Part shown: piece by piece, positions 5,353 to 26,520 of the stretch
How the letters are laid out: each line of letters begins with the position of its first letter
How positions within the stretch are numbered: position 1 is the stretch's first letter
From: Candidatus Dojkabacteria bacterium
GTDB lineage: Bacteria > Patescibacteriota > Dojkabacteria > SC72 > JAFGCJ01
Assembly: GCA_016929645.1 (NCBI GenBank)
Contig: JAFGIK010000102.1
Location: 1-41,597 of the forward strand
Length of the DNA stretch: 41,597 nt
Direction: 5' to 3'
Made by a program: the position numbers and the translations under genes
The notes under the pieces: generated by a model
What the model was told of the DNA's origin: nothing
Databases searched by the model: none
The model's input: only the letters and a program-made list of their open reading frames with translations

Positions 5353-5391
5353 CCAAACAAAAAATCACCTTGACGGTGATTTTTTGTTTGG
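5353..5391 (-). terminator. Intrinsic terminator of tRNA-Gly
   Basis: A 17-bp perfect stem (5353-5369 / 5375-5391) with loop TTGAC; the lower arm is CCAAACAAAAAATCACC. On the minus strand the stem ends in TTTTTTGTTT, so it can act as an intrinsic terminator. The first bases of the stem are the encoded CCA end of the tRNA, so the tRNA tail and the terminator overlap. Confidence 0.8.
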
Positions 5392-5465
5392 AGCGGGAGA
5401 CCGGATTCGAACCGGCGACCTTCTACTTGGGAAGCAGACGTTCTAGCCAACTGAACTACTCCCGC
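5389..5465 (-). tRNA. tRNA-Gly (CCC anticodon)
   Basis: The minus strand folds as a complete cloverleaf. The acceptor stem is GCGGGAG / CTCCCGC, followed by discriminator U and an encoded CCA. The D-arm is GUUCAGUUGGCUAGAAC, the anticodon stem UCUGC / GUAGA with loop UUCCCAA (anticodon CCC), and the T-arm contains GGUUCGAAUCC. It would decode GGG. Its CCA overlaps the terminator stem. An intrinsic terminator and a second copy of its 3' end follow. Confidence 0.93.
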
Positions 5466-8186: not shown

Positions 8187-8723
8187 ATGAACTATTTAAC
8201 AACACTACTCAAACAAAATCAATCATTATTTCATACATCAGACCTTGCTCTCTTATGGAATATATCAAACAAAAATACGCTCTACACAACTATAAAAAGA
8301 TACGTTAAAAAAAAGGCATTACATCGCATTCATAAAGGTTATTATTCAACCAAGCCAATAGCTGAAATCGACCCTATTTTATTAGGAATTGGATATATAC
8401 ATGATTATGCTTACTTAACAACAGAGTCGATTTTGTCTAGTAGTGGAGTAATTAATCAATATTCCACAACCATAACTCTTGTTTCGAACAAGTCTATCAA
8501 TTTTTCGCTTCTAGACACGAATTATATCGTTAGAAAGATGAAACCTGAGCTTCTGTATAACGATTATGGCATTGAGTTATCCGAAAAAGGTTATAAAATC
8601 GCTACACCGGAAAGAGCATTGGTAGATATGATTTATTATAATTCAAATTTTCATGTTGATAATAAAGACAGAGTCAACCTAGAAGAGGTAATTAAAATAA
8701 AGAAAATCTTAAATATAAAATGA
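8187..8723 (+). CDS. AbiEi-type antitoxin / transcriptional regulator
   Basis: This 178-residue protein has the AbiEi order. An N-terminal winged helix (about residues 1-60, with FHTSDLALLWNISNKNTLYT and a basic wing RYVKKKALHRIHKGYY) is followed by a C-terminal domain with YAYLTTESIL and IATPERALVDMIYY. In type IV toxin-antitoxin systems AbiEi neutralises the AbiEii nucleotidyltransferase without lasting contact and represses the operon. A palindrome sits on the -10 box upstream. The stop codon overlaps the toxin ATG (ATGA), so the two are coupled. The system class is known; its activity here is inferred. Confidence 0.85.
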   Translation: MNYLTTLLKQNQSLFHTSDLALLWNISNKNTLYTTIKRYVKKKALHRIHKGYYSTKPIAEIDPILLGIGYIHDYAYLTTESILSSSGVINQYSTTITLVSNKSINFSLLDTNYIVRKMKPELLYNDYGIELSEKGYKIATPERALVDMIYYNSNFHVDNKDRVNLEEVIKIKKILNIK

Positions 8724-9460
8724 AAAGTTTAGTTCAACAACATGCAGTTCATAAACAATGGATGCTTCGATTATTATCAGAAATTGCGGATAATAATCAA
8801 CTAGCACAAAGTATAGCCTTTAAAGGTGGTTCATGTGCTTCCTTACTCAGTTTTTTAGATAGATTTTCAGTAGATCTTGATTTTGATCTCTTGCCCCTTG
8901 CCTTTTCCTTAAAAACGGAATTGCGCAGTGAACTGTACAAAATATTCGATATATTAAATTTAACAATTGATCAGGAAAGTAAGACTCAATTACAATTCTT
9001 TCTTAAATACAAATCTAAACCAAACGAGAGAAATACGCTAAAACTAGAAATTATTGATAATGACTTAAAAGCAAACGCTTATAAGAGTATTTTTATACCT
9101 GATATAAACCGCTATCTACAGATCCAAACCATTGAGACGATGTTTGCCAATAAGTTAGTAGCTCCGGTTGATAGATATGAAAAGCATGGCAGTATAGCAA
9201 CAAGAGATATTTATGATATAAATTTCTTTTTCAATCAGGGGTTTTCATACAACAAAGACGTGATTATTGAAAGAAGGAATAAAACCGTTAAGGAATATTT
9301 TAATGATTTGATAGAATTTATCGATGCAAAAATCACAAATACTTTAATCGTTGAAGATTTGAATTACTTGCTTACTCCAGAACAGTTTAGAATCGCAAGG
9401 AAATTTCTAAAGTCAGAGGTTATTAATAATATAAAAGGTGCACTCAATTCTGAAAATTAA
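8720..9460 (+). CDS. AbiEii-type nucleotidyltransferase toxin
   Basis: The protein has 246 residues. The catalytic signature is KGGSCASLLSFLDRFSVDLD: GGS at 36-38 and the D-x-D pair at 52/54. Later family motifs are NTLKLEIID and NKLVAPVDRYEK followed by ATRDIYDINFFF (Lys/Arg-rich nucleotide-binding helix). All AbiEii landmarks are intact, so it is probably active. Known relatives transfer nucleotides to tRNA or other RNA and halt growth, giving phage abortive infection. It overlaps the antitoxin gene by 4 nt. Confidence 0.85.
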   Translation: MKSLVQQHAVHKQWMLRLLSEIADNNQLAQSIAFKGGSCASLLSFLDRFSVDLDFDLLPLAFSLKTELRSELYKIFDILNLTIDQESKTQLQFFLKYKSKPNERNTLKLEIIDNDLKANAYKSIFIPDINRYLQIQTIETMFANKLVAPVDRYEKHGSIATRDIYDINFFFNQGFSYNKDVIIERRNKTVKEYFNDLIEFIDAKITNTLIVEDLNYLLTPEQFRIARKFLKSEVINNIKGALNSEN

Positions 9461-9833: not shown

Positions 9834-10222
9834 TTAAGTCAAAGGATTTTTAATTTTTTTACGATGAGGATTAGTAACCTGAGTATATCTCTGGGTTGTT
9901 CTTATGTTCTGATGTTCAAGTAACTCCTGTACATAGCGTACATCTGTTCTATTCTCAAGTAAATGTGTAGCAAAGCTATGCCTGAGGGTATGGAATGAAG
10001 CATCCTTTTTAATATCTGTTTTTTTTAGTGCATTAGAGAAAACCTTCTGTGTAGTACGAGTGGTTAGCTTCCCACCTCTTTCGCTGGTAAAACTGTATTC
10101 ATTTCTACTTTTATTACTAGTGATTGCTTTAAACTATCTTTACTAATTTCTTGTTTTGCTGAGATATTTTCATGTTTGCGATAGAGTAGGAAATCTTTGA
10201 TATTATAAAGTTCGCTTTGCAT
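9834..10222 (-). pseudogene. Tyrosine recombinase (Xer/phage integrase type) remnant
   Basis: A 99-codon open frame without a start (10133 to 9834, minus) encodes the C-terminal catalytic half: [20 protein letters not shown] (box II HxLRH), [19 protein letters not shown] (His and the nucleophilic Tyr). An in-frame TAG at 10136-10134 cuts it. Just upstream, in another frame, an ATG at 10222 starts MQSELYNIKDFLLYRKHE, which could be the original N-terminus. The central part with the first catalytic Arg is missing, so this is a deleted, frameshifted gene. It is probably the integrase of a lost element. Confidence 0.8.
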
Positions 10223-17977: not shown

Positions 17978-20836
17978 ATGGATCAACGCAAACAATTTAA
18001 GGATAAGATTTTCCAATTAGTTGAAGTTTTTGGTCGAAACATCGATCAGTACAAGGCCAAATCCGATACACAGTTTAATGAAGCTCAGCTAAGAGAACAA
18101 TTCCTTAATCCAATGTTCAATGCACTTGGATGGGATATGTACAATGAGCAAGGCTATGCTGAGCAATACAAAGAAGTAGTACATGAAGATAAGGTTGAAA
18201 TAGAGGGCAAGCCAAAAGCTCCAGATTATTCTTTTAGAATTGGTGGCCAAAGAAAGTTCTTTCTAGAGGCAAAGAAACCAGTTATAAAAATCAAGACGGA
18301 TTATGATCCAGCTCTGCAGCTTAGGCGCTATGCATGGAGTGCACATCTTCCCGTTTCACTACTAAGTGATTTTGAAGAGTTTGCAATTTACGATACAGCA
18401 ATAGCCCCCAAATCTTCAGATATAGCATCTGTTAGCAGAATTGAGTATTACACCTATGATCAATACCCTGATATATGGGAAAAGCTTTATGATACATTTG
18501 CAAAAGAATCGATACTAAAGGGCAGTTTTGATAGATATGCAGAAAAGGAAAAACGCGGAAAACAGGTTGTTGATAAATCATTCCTTAGCGAGATTGAAAA
18601 GTGGCGTGAATGGCTTGCCAAAGACATTGCCAAAAACAATGCAGCATTAACTGTCGAAGAACTTAATCTAGCAGTTCAAAAGATAATTGACCGACTCATA
18701 TTCTTAAGAATTGCAGAAGATCGGGGGATTGAGAGATATAAAAGATTGCAAGAGTTAGTATCATCAAACAATTCATATAGAGAGCTTAATAAATACTTTA
18801 AGAACGCACAGCAAAAATACAATAGCAATCTATTTGATTTTACAGCCGACACACTTACCCCATTGTTACACATTTCAGATAATGTTTTGGATAAAATATT
18901 GAAACACCTTTATTATCCGACCTCACCTTATGTATTTGATGTTATTGGTGTAGAAGTGCTTGGTAACATCTATGAACAGTTTCTTGGCAAAGTTATACGA
19001 TTAACATCGTCACACAATGCAAAAGTAGAGGAAAAGCCCGAGGTCAAGAAGGCAGGTGGAGTCTACTATACCCCAAAATACATTGTCGATTACATCGTAA
19101 AAAATACCGTAGGAGAGCTAGTTAAACGCAAGACTCCAAAAGAAGTTTCAAAGTTGAAAATACTTGATCCCGCTTGTGGAAGTGGAAGCTTCCTTCTTGG
19201 TGCTTATGAATATTTACTAGATTGGCATCTAAGCTACTATTTGAAGCAAGATGATAAAGAAAAGAAAAAGCTTGAAAAGAAAGGCACTATATTCCAGAAA
19301 GAAAGCGATGATATAACTAACTGGCTTCTTACAACTCAGGAGAAAAAGAGAATTATGCTTAACAATATTTATGGCGTAGATATCGACGCTCAAGCAGTTG
19401 AGGTAACAAAGCTTAGTTTAGCATTAAAGATGCTGGAAAATGAGAATCAAGAATCAATTTCAAATCAGCTCATGCTTTTTCAGGAGCGAATCCTTCCAGA
19501 TCTCAGCTCAAATATTAAATGTGGAAATAGCTTGATCGGTAGCGATTATTGGAACGACAAGGATTTAAGTACTGTCACAGAGGAAGAGATCAAGAAGGTT
19601 AATGCATTTGACTGGAATAAAGAGTTTGCTGAAGTATTTCGTAAGTCCGCCCGCGGTGGAAAACAAGGTGGGTTTGATGCGGTAATTAGGAATCCGCCGT
19701 GGGGTGCTTATGTTAGTACTAAAGAAAAGGAATATTATTCTATACGAAACTTTAAAGATAAATCATATAACTCTGCATATTTATTTATTGAAAAATCACT
19801 TAATCATATAAAAAAGAATGGGTATTTAGGTTTTATTGTTCCTAAAGGTCTTGCTTATGTGCCTAATTTACGTCCCATTAGAAAAATCCTTATAGAAAAT
19901 TCAATTCCTCAGGTAGTTATTGATAGCTCAGAGTCTTTTTATGAATCTGGTGTACAACTTGAGTCACTTATAATAATAACTCGTAAAGGAAAATTTTATT
20001 CAACAAATTTTATACTTGCTACTGGTTATACTGTAGAAGATGAGTTTAGAACAAAGACCGTGTCAGACCCATTAGCTTTTACGGATGATAGAATTGCTAT
20101 ATGGTTAGATGATTTATCATTATCGATAATTAAGAAGATAAAAAAAAATTCAATAAAACTCAATGAAATTTGTGAATCCCGAAGGGGTATTAACATAAAT
20201 AAATATGTCAGTTCTGAAAAAAATGATTGTGTTGTACTTGGAGGACGCGATATAAATAGGTATTATATCAAGAGTTTACGTTATGCTTCTAAATCCTTCA
20301 TTAAAGAGAGTTTCAATTGGCAAAATAATGAAAAGATTGTTTTACAAGAACTTATAGGAAGAATTGGAAAACCTTTATTTGGGAATTTTAGAAATGTAAG
20401 TATTAAAGCAGCAATTGACGTTAACGGTTATTATACCTTAGATACAGTTGTAAATATTTTCATTAAAGACACGTCGTATAACATTAAATATATTTTAGCT
20501 GTGTTAAATTCAAGATTAATGCTTTGGTATTTCCATCGTTATCAAGTGTCTTTTTCTCAGCTTACCATACATATAGGAAACCAGAATGCACAAATATTAC
20601 CTATTCCTAAAGCTACTAGTAAAGATCAATTACACATATCTAACCTTGTAGAACAGCTAATTCTTGCTTATAAAAATTTGAATATCGATAGTTCCACAAG
20701 TCATCATTCCCTGATAGGAAAAAAAATTAAGAGAATCGAAGACAAAATAAATTTACATATATATAAAATATGCGCTCTTAACAAAAATGAAGTTATAATA
20801 ATTGAGAATGACATAATTAATGAACAAATTTCGTGA
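17978..20836 (+). CDS. Type IIG restriction-modification enzyme (Eco57I-like)
   Basis: This 952-residue single-chain enzyme combines nuclease and methyltransferase. The N-terminal PD-(D/E)xK site is PDYSFRI (D83) and FFLEAKKP (E97, K99). A helical connector follows. The N6-adenine methylase has motif I DPACGSGSFLLGAYEYL (about 396), NIYGVDIDAQAVEVTKLSLA, and motif IV NPPW (about 571; NPPY is commoner). The C-terminal third (about 600-950) should be the target-recognition region. One protein would both methylate and cut foreign DNA. It has a strong promoter and Shine-Dalgarno sequence, and its end overlaps the next gene by 17 nt, so the two are co-expressed. Confidence 0.88.
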   Translation: MDQRKQFKDKIFQLVEVFGRNIDQYKAKSDTQFNEAQLREQFLNPMFNALGWDMYNEQGYAEQYKEVVHEDKVEIEGKPKAPDYSFRIGGQRKFFLEAKKPVIKIKTDYDPALQLRRYAWSAHLPVSLLSDFEEFAIYDTAIAPKSSDIASVSRIEYYTYDQYPDIWEKLYDTFAKESILKGSFDRYAEKEKRGKQVVDKSFLSEIEKWREWLAKDIAKNNAALTVEELNLAVQKIIDRLIFLRIAEDRGIERYKRLQELVSSNNSYRELNKYFKNAQQKYNSNLFDFTADTLTPLLHISDNVLDKILKHLYYPTSPYVFDVIGVEVLGNIYEQFLGKVIRLTSSHNAKVEEKPEVKKAGGVYYTPKYIVDYIVKNTVGELVKRKTPKEVSKLKILDPACGSGSFLLGAYEYLLDWHLSYYLKQDDKEKKKLEKKGTIFQKESDDITNWLLTTQEKKRIMLNNIYGVDIDAQAVEVTKLSLALKMLENENQESISNQLMLFQERILPDLSSNIKCGNSLIGSDYWNDKDLSTVTEEEIKKVNAFDWNKEFAEVFRKSARGGKQGGFDAVIRNPPWGAYVSTKEKEYYSIRNFKDKSYNSAYLFIEKSLNHIKKNGYLGFIVPKGLAYVPNLRPIRKILIENSIPQVVIDSSESFYESGVQLESLIIITRKGKFYSTNFILATGYTVEDEFRTKTVSDPLAFTDDRIAIWLDDLSLSIIKKIKKNSIKLNEICESRRGININKYVSSEKNDCVVLGGRDINRYYIKSLRYASKSFIKESFNWQNNEKIVLQELIGRIGKPLFGNFRNVSIKAAIDVNGYYTLDTVVNIFIKDTSYNIKYILAVLNSRLMLWYFHRYQVSFSQLTIHIGNQNAQILPIPKATSKDQLHISNLVEQLILAYKNLNIDSSTSHHSLIGKKIKRIEDKINLHIYKICALNKNEVIIIENDIINEQIS

Positions 20837-21554
20837 ATCTGCAAAACAAATATTAAAGAAAGCCAAAACTCCATTACATTACAAAGAGATTACAAGGCTT
20901 GCGCTTGAAGCTGGAATTCTTGAAACAGAAGGTAAAACTCCAGATGCTACGATGAATGCACAATTAGTAATGGATATTAAAAATAAAGGAGAAGCATCAG
21001 ATTTCATTCAAACTGCCCCTGCAACGTATTCGCTTAACCATAATAAAAAAGGGACAATAAGTACAGCTGCACAGATTAGGGATGAAGAAGCAGAGGAGAG
21101 AATCCAAATCGAAAGTGGTTATACAGGTAAAGCCGGAGAACATGTAGTCTGCTCTGAACTTTTATTTAGAGGATTCAATGCAAGCATTATGAGTGTTGAT
21201 GTGGGACTTGATATCGTTGCAACTTATAAGGGAAAAATGTTTGGAATTCAAGTCAAAACCTCAAACCTAAGCAGTTTTAATACTTATGTCTTTGATGTAA
21301 GAAAAGCTTCATTTGAAAGACACGATTCTGGAAATATTTATTACATATTTGTTTTACATGGAGAAGAAGAGAACAACTATCTCATTATTCCTTACCTTGA
21401 AATGGAAAAATTAGTGTCTCAGAAAGTAATTCATGAGGTTGGCCACGGAAAAAGATATAGGATTAACATAAAATTCAGAGACAACAAGGTTTATCTGGGC
21501 AATTTGCAAAATGAAATGCAGTATTTCTTTAACAATTGGGGGATTATTAAGTAA
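20820..21554 (+). CDS. HARE-HTH protein with restriction-endonuclease-like domain
   Basis: The 244-residue protein starts with a HARE-HTH domain (about 1-75; FRESAKQILKKAKTPLHYKE, then DATMNAQLVMDI). This winged helix is often fused to restriction enzymes and chromatin proteins. After a linker comes a PD-(D/E)xK-like core: GKAGEHVVCSELLFRGF (E107), VGLDIVA (D131), FGIQVKTSN (Q144-x-K146). The end is basic and aromatic. The 17-nt overlap with the type IIG enzyme links them functionally; it could be a second nuclease or an accessory DNA sensor. The partner role is inference. Confidence 0.8.
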   Translation: MNKFRESAKQILKKAKTPLHYKEITRLALEAGILETEGKTPDATMNAQLVMDIKNKGEASDFIQTAPATYSLNHNKKGTISTAAQIRDEEAEERIQIESGYTGKAGEHVVCSELLFRGFNASIMSVDVGLDIVATYKGKMFGIQVKTSNLSSFNTYVFDVRKASFERHDSGNIYYIFVLHGEEENNYLIIPYLEMEKLVSQKVIHEVGHGKRYRINIKFRDNKVYLGNLQNEMQYFFNNWGIIK

Positions 21555-21625
21555 TCTAACAAAAAAAAACTTGCCCATTTCAATTTTTAATAATTTTTTA
21601 ACAATCAAGCATTATACTTATTCAT

Positions 21626-22648
21626 GTGAAAAGAAATGAAGTAAAAAATCAAAATGAAACCTCTGAAATCATCATCTTTAAGGCTTCTGATGCAAAAATT
21701 TCAGTTAATGTCATTTTAGAGAACGAAACAGTCTGGCTAACAATAGAACAGATGGCTTTACTGTTTGAAAAATCCAGATCTACAATAAACGAACATATAC
21801 TCAATATATTCTCTGAAGGTGAATTACTTGAAGCTGAAACTATTAAGAAAATCGGAAATTCCGATTTTTCTACAAAACCAACAAATTTTTATAACCTCGA
21901 CGTCATAATTTCCGTTGGATATCGAGTTAAATCTCTACGAGGTACAGAATTTCGCAAATGGGCGACACAAAGGCTCAGAGAGTACATTATTAAAGGCTTT
22001 ACACTGGATGACGATCGTCTTAAAGGTAACTCAGGTGGTATATACTGGAAAGAGCTACTTGAAAGAATTCGAGACATCAGAAGTAGTGAAAAGGTTTTGT
22101 ACAGGCAAGTTCTTGATTTGTATGCCACAAGTATTGACTATGACCCCAAAAGTGAGCAATCAATTAGATTTTTTGCAACAGTACAGAACAAACTACACTA
22201 CGCTGTAAACAAACAAACTGCTCCAGAGCTTATTTACTCTAGAGCAGACGCCGAAAAAGAATTCATGGGTTTAACGACATTTACCGGTGCTATTCCTGTG
22301 AAAAAAGATATCTCCATTGCCAAAAATTATCTAAACAAAGATGAAGTGCAAATATTAAATCGTTTGGTTTCAGCATTTTTTGATCTTGCAGAACTTAAGG
22401 CTATGGAGCATAAAGAAATGAAGATGCAGGATTGGATAAATGAACTTGATAAATTTTCCAATATTTATGGTAAAGGGAAATTAATAAATGCCGGTGCTAT
22501 AAGCCATAAAAAAGCTTTAGAGAAAGCAGAAAAAGAATACAAAAAATATCAGCTTAAAACCCTGTCACCCGTTGAAAAAGATTATTTTGAAAATATTAAA
22601 AAATTAACAAAAAAAGTAAATAAAAACACAAAGCAACCATGTACATAA
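21626..22648 (+). CDS. RhuM-family protein
   Basis: The N-terminus matches RhuM (virulence-RhuM family): VWLTIEQMALLFEKSRSTIN, ILNIFSEGEL, STKPTNFYNLDVIISVGYRV, GTEFRKWATQRLREYIIKGF. The remaining 200 residues are helical and charged (EKEYKKYQLK). It starts at GTG; TATACT ends 7 nt before it. RhuM proteins were named from a Salmonella pathogenicity island and are frequent next to restriction systems and mobile DNA. Their biochemical activity is not settled. It overlaps the next gene by 10 nt. Confidence 0.85.
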   Translation: MKRNEVKNQNETSEIIIFKASDAKISVNVILENETVWLTIEQMALLFEKSRSTINEHILNIFSEGELLEAETIKKIGNSDFSTKPTNFYNLDVIISVGYRVKSLRGTEFRKWATQRLREYIIKGFTLDDDRLKGNSGGIYWKELLERIRDIRSSEKVLYRQVLDLYATSIDYDPKSEQSIRFFATVQNKLHYAVNKQTAPELIYSRADAEKEFMGLTTFTGAIPVKKDISIAKNYLNKDEVQILNRLVSAFFDLAELKAMEHKEMKMQDWINELDKFSNIYGKGKLINAGAISHKKALEKAEKEYKKYQLKTLSPVEKDYFENIKKLTKKVNKNTKQPCT

Positions 22649-24120
22649 CCCCATCTCTTCTTTACAACTACATCCAGTGTCCACACAGGCCATGGCGCGA
22701 CAAATATGGTAACCCTGCAGAAAAACTTGAGCCAAACGAATTTGTAAAGCTTCTTTGGGAAAAAGGTGTTTTACACGAGGAATCAATTGTAACCAAGCTG
22801 GGACTTTTCGAAGACATGGAGCAATATCCATATAAGGAACGGGCCGCCAAAACCCTGCAAGCTATGCAGGATGGTGTACAACTTATCTACCATGGTCAAC
22901 TTATTAAAGATGAGTTAAGGGGTGAACCAGATTTACTTCGAAAAGTTTCTTCAAACCCTAATAAATACATGGCAATTGATATTAAATCAGGCCAAGGATA
23001 TGAAGGCGCAAACAACGAAGAGGATGAGACTGGCAAGCCGAAGAAGCATTATGCAGTTCAGCTTTGCCTGTATACAGACATTCTTGAGCGCCTGGGCTAT
23101 TCGTACAGCAGAGAGGGCCGCATTATTGACATAAATAACAAGGAAGTCGAATATACCTTTGATAATCCGATGGGAGCTCGTACACCTCAGACGTTTTGGG
23201 AATATTACATACAAATCAAAGAAGAAGTTTTGCTTCTTTTGCAGAATAAAACAGAAAACAAGCCAGCATCAAGTAGTATCTGTAAATTATGCCCTTGGTA
23301 CAGCAGCTGCAAAAATTGGATAAAAGAAAATGACGATATGACACAGATATATCGATTAGGACGAAGTATTCGAGACACATTGCGTGAAGATCTAGAAATA
23401 AATACTGTTGAAGATTTACTAAATATAAATTTAACTCAAGCATTATCAAACAAAAGCAAAAACTTCCTTGTCGGAATAGGTGAATCCACACTAAGCACTG
23501 TTATTCAGCGAGCAAGAGTATTTAGAACTACAAAGCAGCCAGTTGCCTATAGATCATTTGATTTTCCAAAAGTTGATCATGAACTTTTCTTTGATATAGA
23601 AGCAGATCCCACCCAAGATCATGTATATCTCCATGGAGTTTGGGAACGATCAAAGCAAGGCGAGAAATTTGTATATTTCCTTGCTGAAAATGTCAGTCCA
23701 AAAGAAGAAAAAGAAGCATGGGCAGGTTTCTGGAAGTACATTGATGGACTAGAAGGTTCCTACTCAGTTTACTACTATGGAAGCTATGAAAAGACCATGT
23801 ATAAACATCTTAGAGAAAAATATCCTGAAGTCATTTCCGAGGACAAGCTTGAAGAATTCTTTGATAATGAGAATGTAATTAACCTCTACAACGATGTTAT
23901 CGATAAATACACAGATTGGCCATTATCAAGCTATTCCATCAAGGAAATTGCTGTATATCTTGGATTTAAATGGAGAGATACCGAACCATCAGGTGCAAAC
24001 TCAATTAAATGGTACAACGAGTTTGTAGAGAGTGGAGACCAAGATATTATGAAGAGGATTGTGGAGTACAATGAGGACGATTGTAAAGCTACAATGGTGG
24101 TGAAAGATTGGTTTAGGTAA
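22639..24120 (+). CDS. TM0106-type RecB-like nuclease with DEDD exonuclease domain
   Basis: The 493-residue protein has two nuclease halves. The N-terminal Cas4/RecB-like PD-(D/E)xK site is GEPDLL (D98) and AIDIKSGQG (D114-x-K116), with an Fe-S cluster ligand set C14, C215, C218, C224. The C-terminal RNase H-like DEDD fold has FFDIEADP (D319, E321) and YNEDDCKA (D480/D481). Such two-nuclease proteins are known but their role is not established. It overlaps the RhuM gene by 10 nt and ends the four-gene run of nucleic-acid enzymes. Confidence 0.85.
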   Translation: MYITPSLLYNYIQCPHRPWRDKYGNPAEKLEPNEFVKLLWEKGVLHEESIVTKLGLFEDMEQYPYKERAAKTLQAMQDGVQLIYHGQLIKDELRGEPDLLRKVSSNPNKYMAIDIKSGQGYEGANNEEDETGKPKKHYAVQLCLYTDILERLGYSYSREGRIIDINNKEVEYTFDNPMGARTPQTFWEYYIQIKEEVLLLLQNKTENKPASSSICKLCPWYSSCKNWIKENDDMTQIYRLGRSIRDTLREDLEINTVEDLLNINLTQALSNKSKNFLVGIGESTLSTVIQRARVFRTTKQPVAYRSFDFPKVDHELFFDIEADPTQDHVYLHGVWERSKQGEKFVYFLAENVSPKEEKEAWAGFWKYIDGLEGSYSVYYYGSYEKTMYKHLREKYPEVISEDKLEEFFDNENVINLYNDVIDKYTDWPLSSYSIKEIAVYLGFKWRDTEPSGANSIKWYNEFVESGDQDIMKRIVEYNEDDCKATMVVKDWFR

Positions 24121-25388: not shown

Positions 25389-25753
25389 ATGGAAAGACAT
25401 TTAACTGAAGAAACGAAGATAAATATCTCCGATACAATCGACGTTATAAAGATTACGAAAATAAAGCTACGTTGCACATTCATACTCATCCTGTTCCCAA
25501 CATAGGCGAACCATGTGGTCCATCAGAAAACGATAAAAGGAACACAAAAGTGTTTATAAAAAGTCCTAATTTCAAAGTTTTTGTGATAAGAAGTAATTCT
25601 GTTTTTCATCTACAATTAGAGAAGGGCAAAAACGTAACGCAAATAAAGTATAATTGGGATGAATTTGGAAAAAAATTCTGGAGTAAAATATCATTCAACC
25701 GAGAAGTTCGTTCAAATACGCTAAACCAAATTACTCAATATTCAATTACATAA
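25389..25753 (+). pseudogene. JAMM-like (MPN+) fragment, probably frameshifted
   Basis: An open frame (25409-25753; first start TTG at 25472) contains HIHTHPVP followed by GPSENDKRN, close to the JAMM metalloprotease pattern HxHP...(G)PSxxD. KVFVIRSNSVFHL follows. The best ATG (25389) starts a different frame, MERHLTEETKINISDT, that runs out at about 25503. Joining the two needs one frameshift near 25440. The catalytic Glu upstream is not evident. It is either a broken gene or a short protein; divergent from the isoprenoid-synthase-like gene. Confidence 0.4.
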
Positions 25754-25970
25754 AAAAACAAGTACCTGTAGGACTTACTTTATAAATACCTCGGTATAGA
25801 GGCATATATTGACATAGCTATTCTTGCTTTACATTCTTTAGACCCTATAGTAAATATAAGGTTCAGCTTGTCCCGTATTTGGCAGTAGACTTATTCTCTA
25901 ATTCCTGTATAATCACAGACGCTTTTTAGTATCAATCAGAACTAAATAAGTATTATTTGTCTACCCTTTT
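25754..25970 (+). promoter_or_regulatory. Leader region before the structured element
   Basis: No gene is visible. A TATAAT at 25908-25913 could start transcription near 25920 into the structured element. No good -35 box lies 17 bp upstream (the nearest, TTGGCA, is 23 bp away), so this promoter is tentative. A small CCTC/GAGG hairpin lies near 25790. Confidence 0.35.
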
Positions 25971-26516
25971 ACAACCAAAGGACTTACAACTAAAAATTTG
26001 GCATGCCTCGAATAAACCTAATACGAATCGATTCGAGTCGATCTCTCAAATTTTCTTCTCCCTATTGCTACCAGAGTTGCACACAAAGAGTTTCTTTATA
26101 ATAGAAACTCCTGTCAATACACTGACTTCTAACTACATAAGAACTAACTGATGGCAGCAGGGAGAAGAAAAGGAGGATAATCGAATCTCGCGTCGTTCGC
26201 CAAGGGCGGACAAACACTTCTCTGACGCGTGAAAGGAGAAAAATGGAGGACAAAGAAGAAAAAGAACAACAAGAAGAGTTTGGGAGAAATACTCTCCCAT
26301 TCAATCTCGGCAAGTATTCCAATTGGATACTTGTTGGAATTATAGCCGCTGCCTTACTGGCGGCTATAATTGTTCAGGTGATTGAAGCCGTCATCGGCTT
26401 CTTTCACTAAAATCAAACCAGAGGCAACCACAACCTACCAATAGAGCCAAACCTATACGGTTAGTGGCTAACGCTTAAATGCGTAATTTGGTTGTGGTGT
26501 AAGTCCTTTGGTTTGT
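25971..26516 (+). ncRNA. Large ornate structured element bounded by an 18-bp inverted repeat
   Basis: ACAACCAAAGGACTTACA (25971-25988) pairs with TGTAAGTCCTTTGGTTTGT (26498-26516, one bulge). Inside, nested stems include 26029-26035/26181-26187, a 12-bp helix 26051-26062/26160-26171 enclosing the 8-bp hairpin 26088-26095/26103-26110, and 26189-26194/26224-26229 with an inner CGCC/GGCG hairpin. A 55-codon ORF and a branched 3' domain follow. G+C is locally higher than around it. TTTT flanks both ends, so it could also be a miniature mobile element. I can match it to no known RNA class; tmRNA, RNase P, SRP and 6S signatures are absent. Confidence 0.6.
26243..26410 (+). CDS. Small single-pass membrane protein (55 aa) inside the structured element
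   Basis: A strong Shine-Dalgarno sequence (AAAGGAG, 26232-26238) precedes ATG 26243. The product has an acidic, Gln/Lys-rich start (MEDKEEKEQQEEFGRN), then one hydrophobic helix (WILVGIIAAALLAAIIVQVI), and ends AVIGFFH. The coding DNA folds into four consecutive hairpins: 26281-26287/26293-26299, 26311-26317/26327-26333, 26338-26349/26360-26371 (12 bp, perfect), and 26384-26390/26395-26401. The membrane segment and the RBS argue for translation; the hairpins argue for RNA function. No family is recognised. Confidence 0.6.
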   Translation: MEDKEEKEQQEEFGRNTLPFNLGKYSNWILVGIIAAALLAAIIVQVIEAVIGFFH

Positions 26517-26520
26517 TTTT
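26408..26520 (+). terminator. Branched 3' domain ending in T5
   Basis: Stem 26414-26424/26505-26515 (11 bp, one G-U) encloses stem 26427-26435/26490-26498 (9 bp). That stem carries two hairpins: 26445-26453/26459-26469 and 26471-26474/26481-26484. TTTTT (26516-26520) follows, so the domain could end transcription. Its 3' arm is also the right end of the 18-bp repeat, so pairing with 25971-25988 and this local fold exclude each other. Confidence 0.55.

Follow-up and report, generated by a model that had tools for sequence, protein, structure and literature searches.

A tightly folded, repeat-bounded small-gene element in a Candidatus Dojkabacteria genome and a second locus with related ends

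What kind of element lies at positions 25971-26520 of the window, by which we mean the whole 41,597-nucleotide stretch of Candidatus Dojkabacteria DNA analysed here? A preliminary description, made from the sequence alone, saw an unclassified and highly structured unit enclosing a small membrane-protein gene. We report that it is a 550-base element carrying one tiny membrane-protein gene and folded far more tightly than chance, and that hyper-structured, repeat-bounded small-gene units of this kind apparently form an undescribed family of two members in a single genome. The role of this family could be that of a folded messenger RNA or that of a DNA cassette, and the RNA- and DNA-level readings could both hold together.

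The fold energy of positions 25971-26516 is -202.8 kcal/mol, corresponding to a z-score of -10.8 against 100 dinucleotide shuffles, while a baseline of 47 random 550-nt windows of the same genome gave a mean shuffle z of -0.9 (sd 1.9, minimum -7.0). The interior without the repeat arms reaches z -10.4, and therefore the structure signal is not created by the inverted repeat; the 5' leader alone has a dinucleotide-shuffle z of -6.4. The element tops the scan of its own window and stands ahead of 2248 windows from other contigs (463 kb), and within 504 kb of its own genome no more structured stretch was found. None of the same-length windows in those other contigs, scanned on both strands, lies as far below GC expectation. 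The parts of the element and of its upstream flank are the following.

25886-25913, + strand: promoter-like site TAGACT-16-TATAAT, from a consensus scan only (10/12), with a predicted start at about 25920
25971-25988, + strand: 5' arm of the end-to-end helix P1; its core AACCAAAGGACTT (25973-25985) is common to the second locus
26004-26009, + strand: 5' strand of P2, a nested long-range helix of 6 bp (TGCCTC/GAGGCA), pairing with 26421-26426 at probability 0.95
26030-26187, + strand: domain A, a 158-nt leader arm with a 13-bp stem (TTTTCTTCTCCCT/AGGGAGAAGAAAA) and two apical hairpins
26195-26211, + strand: leader hairpin GTTCGCC/GGCGGAC, pairing probability 0.98
26232-26238, + strand: Shine-Dalgarno sequence AAAGGAG, with GGAG at 26235-26238
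26243-26410, + strand: ORF of 55 aa with an acidic N-terminus and one predicted membrane helix
26281-26408, + strand: four successive hairpins within the ORF (26281-26299, 26307-26337, 26338-26371 and 26377-26408)
26414-26424, + strand: CAAACCAGAGG, alternative local partner of the 3' arm, pairing with 26505-26515 and excluding P1
26421-26426, + strand: 3' strand of P2, pairing with 26004-26009
26427-26498, + strand: branched 3' domain, a 9-bp stem (ACCACAACC/GGTTGTGGT, 26427-26435 with 26490-26498, pairing probability 0.97) with two hairpins inside; pairing probabilities 0.93-0.98
26498-26516, + strand: 3' arm of P1, which with its flank (AAGTCYTTTGGTTTNNNTTYCTTGAYA) is common to the second locus
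26516-26520, + strand: T5 run 3' of the 3' arm, a possible terminator tail, missing at the second locus

The inverted repeat at the ends, first given as 18 bp, is about that size: it is perfect over 16 bp (25973-25988 with 26498-26513) and comprises 17 pairs when one bulge (ACAA/TTGT) is counted, and P1 is predicted to form with a pairing probability of 1.0 over 13 bp. Both nested helices reported earlier exist, although their lengths of 7 and 12 bp were slightly overstated, as we find 6 and 9 bp. Instead of at least six local hairpins there are at least nine with high pairing probability, and the branched 3' domain, the terminal T5 and the small membrane-protein ORF with a strong ribosome-binding site in mid-element were all recovered. 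A single 16-bp repeat at such spacing is not rare genome-wide (about one is expected by chance, by our own estimate), and the repeat is significant because its core is common to a second paired locus, not by length alone.

The ORF is preceded at normal spacing by its strong Shine-Dalgarno sequence, and its 55-aa product, with one predicted membrane helix, contains a hydrophobic stretch, ILVGIIAAALLAAIIV, read from the sequence. In the ensemble the GGAG is about 65-70% paired, and deletion of the 3' arm makes no difference to this value. When codons were shuffled synonymously, preserving both the protein and the codon composition, the ORF gave a z-score of -5.3 and none of 300 shuffles was as stable; the corresponding mean for 295 further short ORFs of the same genome that likewise have a ribosome-binding site was -0.3 (sd 1.3), several of the strongest outliers among them overlapping tRNA genes or insertion-sequence ends. 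Encoding a hydrophobic helix is thus not what produces the structure. No credible relative of the 55-aa ORF was found in viral contigs, 86 genomes of the class, Pfam, PHROGs or PADLOC. Shortly upstream of the element, at about 25420-25753 on the + strand, lies what resembles a broken gene, an ORF remnant that has an HTHP motif and lacks a good start codon.

The second locus was found by scanning for long-range perfect inverted repeats over about 1.54 Mb, or about 97% of the genome (1.59 Mb in 109 contigs). Apart from a transposon-like repeat family and a palindromic repeat, it found few of them. The genome has a MITE-like inverted-repeat family, GACCGAGACTCAGCTTCATGAAATTTTAAT (L266:14677-15003, L246:17846-19001, L131:6519-7043 and L256:3058-3643), one copy of which brackets an ORF resembling a REP-associated (Y1-type) transposase; the inverted-repeat scan also gave a dense palindromic repeat, ACGTCATGACGTC, at L243:1800-2118. 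Separately, a very stable, non-coding-looking stretch on another contig (L120:10560-10690, C92) holds a tandem pair of near-identical 40-nt hairpins, CCAGGATCTGGTTTAGCYATAAACTAGTACTGGGTCCTTGG, and may be a structured RNA.

The second locus, C58:33500-33974 (L124:13500-13974), is bounded by the arms AAACCAAAAGACTTGAG, a 17-bp perfect inverted repeat that has a 13-nt core, AACCAAARGACTT, in common with the arms of the window element. Searched genome-wide at zero mismatches, AACCAAARGACTTRNR has four matches, all of them belonging to the two arm pairs. The arms are identical inside each locus and differ between loci at four positions (G/A, A/G, C/A and A/G), each of the four differences being compensated in the opposite arm. 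Common sequence runs on into the 3' flank (80% over 25 nt), not into the 5' flank. The neighbours of the second locus are a tRNA-Pro gene on one side and, on the other, an arginyl-tRNA synthetase gene, which it faces; it carries a membrane-anchored ORF of 123 aa with a good ribosome-binding site, which is unrelated to the 55-aa ORF and for which no homologues were found. It too is over-structured, with a z-score of -7.5 for the whole and -5.1 for the interior, and synonymous-codon shuffling of the 123-aa ORF gave -4.9 (0/300). Since the interiors of the two loci are unrelated and not alignable, covariation rests on two sequences.

The similarity searches that the preliminary description had proposed were run, and gave neither a family nor a homologue in related genomes. 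The element has no match in Rfam at gathering or at permissive thresholds (E up to 10), group I and II introns included, so that its designation as unclassified stands. An identity as tmRNA was rejected, as the tmRNA of this genome is elsewhere, on contig C49 (96.9 bits). BLAST against the same genome, 59 relatives and phages returned, besides the element itself in one copy, short low-complexity matches only. Single-sequence covariance models of domain A (380 genomes of the phylum) and of the 3' domain (86 genomes of the class) recovered the window alone, and scans of viral and genome collections with the end sequence gave only single-arm chance matches. As a facing pair, the repeat core is found in 0 of the 86 and 0 of the 380 genomes, and single occurrences in the same and related genomes have no partner arm wherever the neighbouring sequence was read. 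This absence of homologues is weak evidence, because the set searched contains only one close family relative.

We tentatively favour, with somewhat less than even confidence, the view that the element forms a transcription unit of one gene, the product of which is a structured mRNA closed by a switchable 5'-3' clamp, P1. The unit would be transcribed as an mRNA and its ORF translated. In the emerging RNA the 3' arm would initially pair locally with the 3' UTR over 11 bp, before the clamp closes; after transcription the 5' arm would capture the 3' arm and oust this local hairpin, so that a nascent transcript could move from one pairing state to the other. The closed clamp would shield both RNA ends and yield a compact, long-lived mRNA, in what may be a form of stability control, and loss or trimming of an arm would return the RNA to the local 3' hairpin. 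A local 11-bp partner of the 3' arm, mutually exclusive with the clamp, is predicted in the 3' UTR at both loci (at the second, AATGTAAACCA, L124:13931-13941). Among 1000 shuffled 3' UTRs, 5 reached 11 bp for the window and 3 for the second locus. In the full-length RNA the clamped state is better than the local one by 9.3 kcal/mol (window) and 14.2 kcal/mol (second locus). Removal of the 3' arm is predicted to leave access to the Shine-Dalgarno sequence of the window ORF unchanged and to lower it at the second locus; by prediction, translation of the window ORF is not under the control of the clamp. Excess structure that extends into the coding region, the clamp core, compensated differences and two exclusive pairings are features of both loci.

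The fold is not clearly strand-specific at the two loci, which is a real weakness of an RNA-level explanation: the reverse strand of the element folds to -195.6 kcal/mol against -202.8 for the forward strand, and the second locus has its more stable fold on the reverse strand (-156.0, compared with -149.0). The promoter match, no better than chance as promoter-like sites in the region are not more numerous than chance in the consensus scan, weighs against it as well, as does the second locus, where no terminator is recognisable. In addition, a helix alone would not need a conserved core, which suggests a protein-binding or recombination site. Two further points against the RNA-level view are that predicted Shine-Dalgarno access of the window ORF does not respond to loss of the 3' arm and that the covariation comes from two sequences.

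A strong alternative, which we think somewhat less likely than the RNA-level one, is that the repeats are the ends of a DNA-level cassette, either an inverton, in which one recombinase acting at both loci flips the small membrane-protein gene with respect to an external promoter, or a mobile cassette of low copy number with a passenger gene. Arms that are identical within each locus and vary between loci around a conserved core are what is seen in recombinase sites; both units are intergenic and carry unrelated membrane-protein ORFs, the common sequence likewise includes the 3' flank, the repeat does not enclose the nearest promoter-like site and the genome has several tyrosine recombinases. 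However, recombinase matches are found beside neither locus, there being none on C58 and a decayed one 16 kb off on the contig of the window. The preliminary description had named a miniature mobile element with TTTT duplications as its main alternative. In its many-copy form this was not supported, with one BLAST copy of the element and a core paired at two loci only, and the count of such pairs, just two genome-wide and zero across 380 phylum genomes, speaks against a cassette in general; a low-copy cassette or invertible segment may still be the case. The TTTT is of low complexity and does not directly abut the perfect repeat, and the second locus has no target duplication. A DNA cassette would also leave unexplained the structured interior, coding region included, and the local partner of both 3' arms. 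The RNA-level reading thus accounts better for the structured interior and for the local partners of the 3' arms, and the DNA-level one for the conserved core.

Two further explanations take the element as an RNA of a known type. It seems improbable that it is a type I toxin mRNA resembling those of hok or AapA, in which a small hydrophobic peptide would be silenced by a 5'-3' interaction together with an antisense RNA. A 55-aa product with one predicted membrane helix, and an end-to-end helix competing with a 3' hairpin much as in the long-distance interaction described for such mRNAs (PMC6733600), would fit, but Shine-Dalgarno access is not under the control of the clamp, the consensus scan found no antisense promoter-like site and the 123-aa anchored protein of the sister locus is not toxin-like. 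Most membrane type I toxins have a basic C-terminus (PMC8309996), which the 55-aa peptide lacks. We consider it very improbable that the element is a large ornate non-coding RNA, similar to OLE, ROOL or GOLLD, with an ORF arising by chance. In favour of this are its scale, its branched 3' domain and the very low energy of its fold, and the preliminary description had noted a likeness in scale and order; nevertheless, no family of this kind matched in Rfam even at E 10, no homologue appeared by sequence or with the two domain models, the ORF has a strong Shine-Dalgarno sequence at normal spacing, and the one further locus with these ends, which are all that is common, has an unrelated interior that is mainly the 123-aa coding sequence. 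The likeness was therefore not borne out.

Other features of this genome concern integration and defence. Among the 45 tRNA genes present in about 97% of the genome, 14 have a copy of their own 3' end (at least 13/16) downstream, at a distance of 110-170 bp in 10 of the 14 cases; controls gave 1/45 upstream and 5/409 with swapped tails. One example is the tRNA-Gly gene at window positions 5389-5465, with a copy about 110 bp downstream, and further loci are on L201, L216, L262, L264, L121-L124, L126 and others. Most have a long perfect hairpin directly 3' of the tRNA, followed by a structured stretch, and the Val and Lys copies have GGTTCGCAACTGGAGGCCCGAGA...GATCGGYAGCCGACAGGAGTACT in common. 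These are possibly miniature integrative elements at tRNA ends; the three loci searched in Rfam gave no match. The window also has, at 9873-10139 on the - strand and near two tRNA genes, a decayed fragment of a tyrosine integrase that contains an internal stop, probably the remnant of an integrative element. A defence-type cluster occupies positions 8720-9460 and 17978-24120, with an AbiEii-like nucleotidyltransferase in the former interval and also a type IIG restriction-methylase, a HARE-HTH/PD-(D/E)XK protein, RhuM and a Cas4-like/RNase_H_2 nuclease.

Under either reading, the second locus makes a testable pair of what was an isolated observation. If the structured-mRNA reading is true, the pair would represent a general end-clamp placed on unrelated genes rather than the private fold of one toxin, in a lineage in which RNA regulation has been little studied; if the DNA-level reading is true, this lineage would have an invertible or mobile cassette system with two loci that serves small membrane proteins. 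On the RNA side one may go further and propose that a lineage of reduced genomes has a new class of bacterial mRNA, with unrelated small membrane-protein genes in one clamped package, a conserved covarying core that switches between the clamp and a local 3' hairpin, and coding sequence shaped for structure, a proposal that we regard as unlikely on present evidence.

Among known systems, the OLE, ROOL and GOLLD RNAs resemble the element in size (roughly 500-600 nt or more), in their many helices and in long-range pairing, but no sequence or structure match to them exists and the element appears to be an mRNA. Like mobile insertion cassettes and MITEs it has terminal inverted repeats and a passenger gene with no transposase; unlike them it has two copies with differing ends, no common interior and unconvincing target duplications. 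Invertons also have perfect inverted repeats (here of 16 and 17 bp) about 0.5 kb apart, a surface or membrane gene and a core common between loci, while the element has no adjacent recombinase match and an unusually structured interior. A further close comparison is with the toxin mRNAs of the hok/aapA type and their 5'-3' long-distance interaction (PMC6733600). The control that defines these mRNAs, in which the interaction hides the Shine-Dalgarno sequence and 3' trimming frees it, is not reproduced here, as in the predicted fold the clamp leaves the Shine-Dalgarno sequence unhidden; the peptides are unrelated, no antisense promoter-like site was seen and the sister locus encodes a 123-aa protein. 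In both cases, however, the mRNA of a small membrane protein has paired ends, alternative 3' pairings and structure within the coding region, and the comparison that we favour is that the element would work like the hok/AapA mRNAs without being a member of their group.
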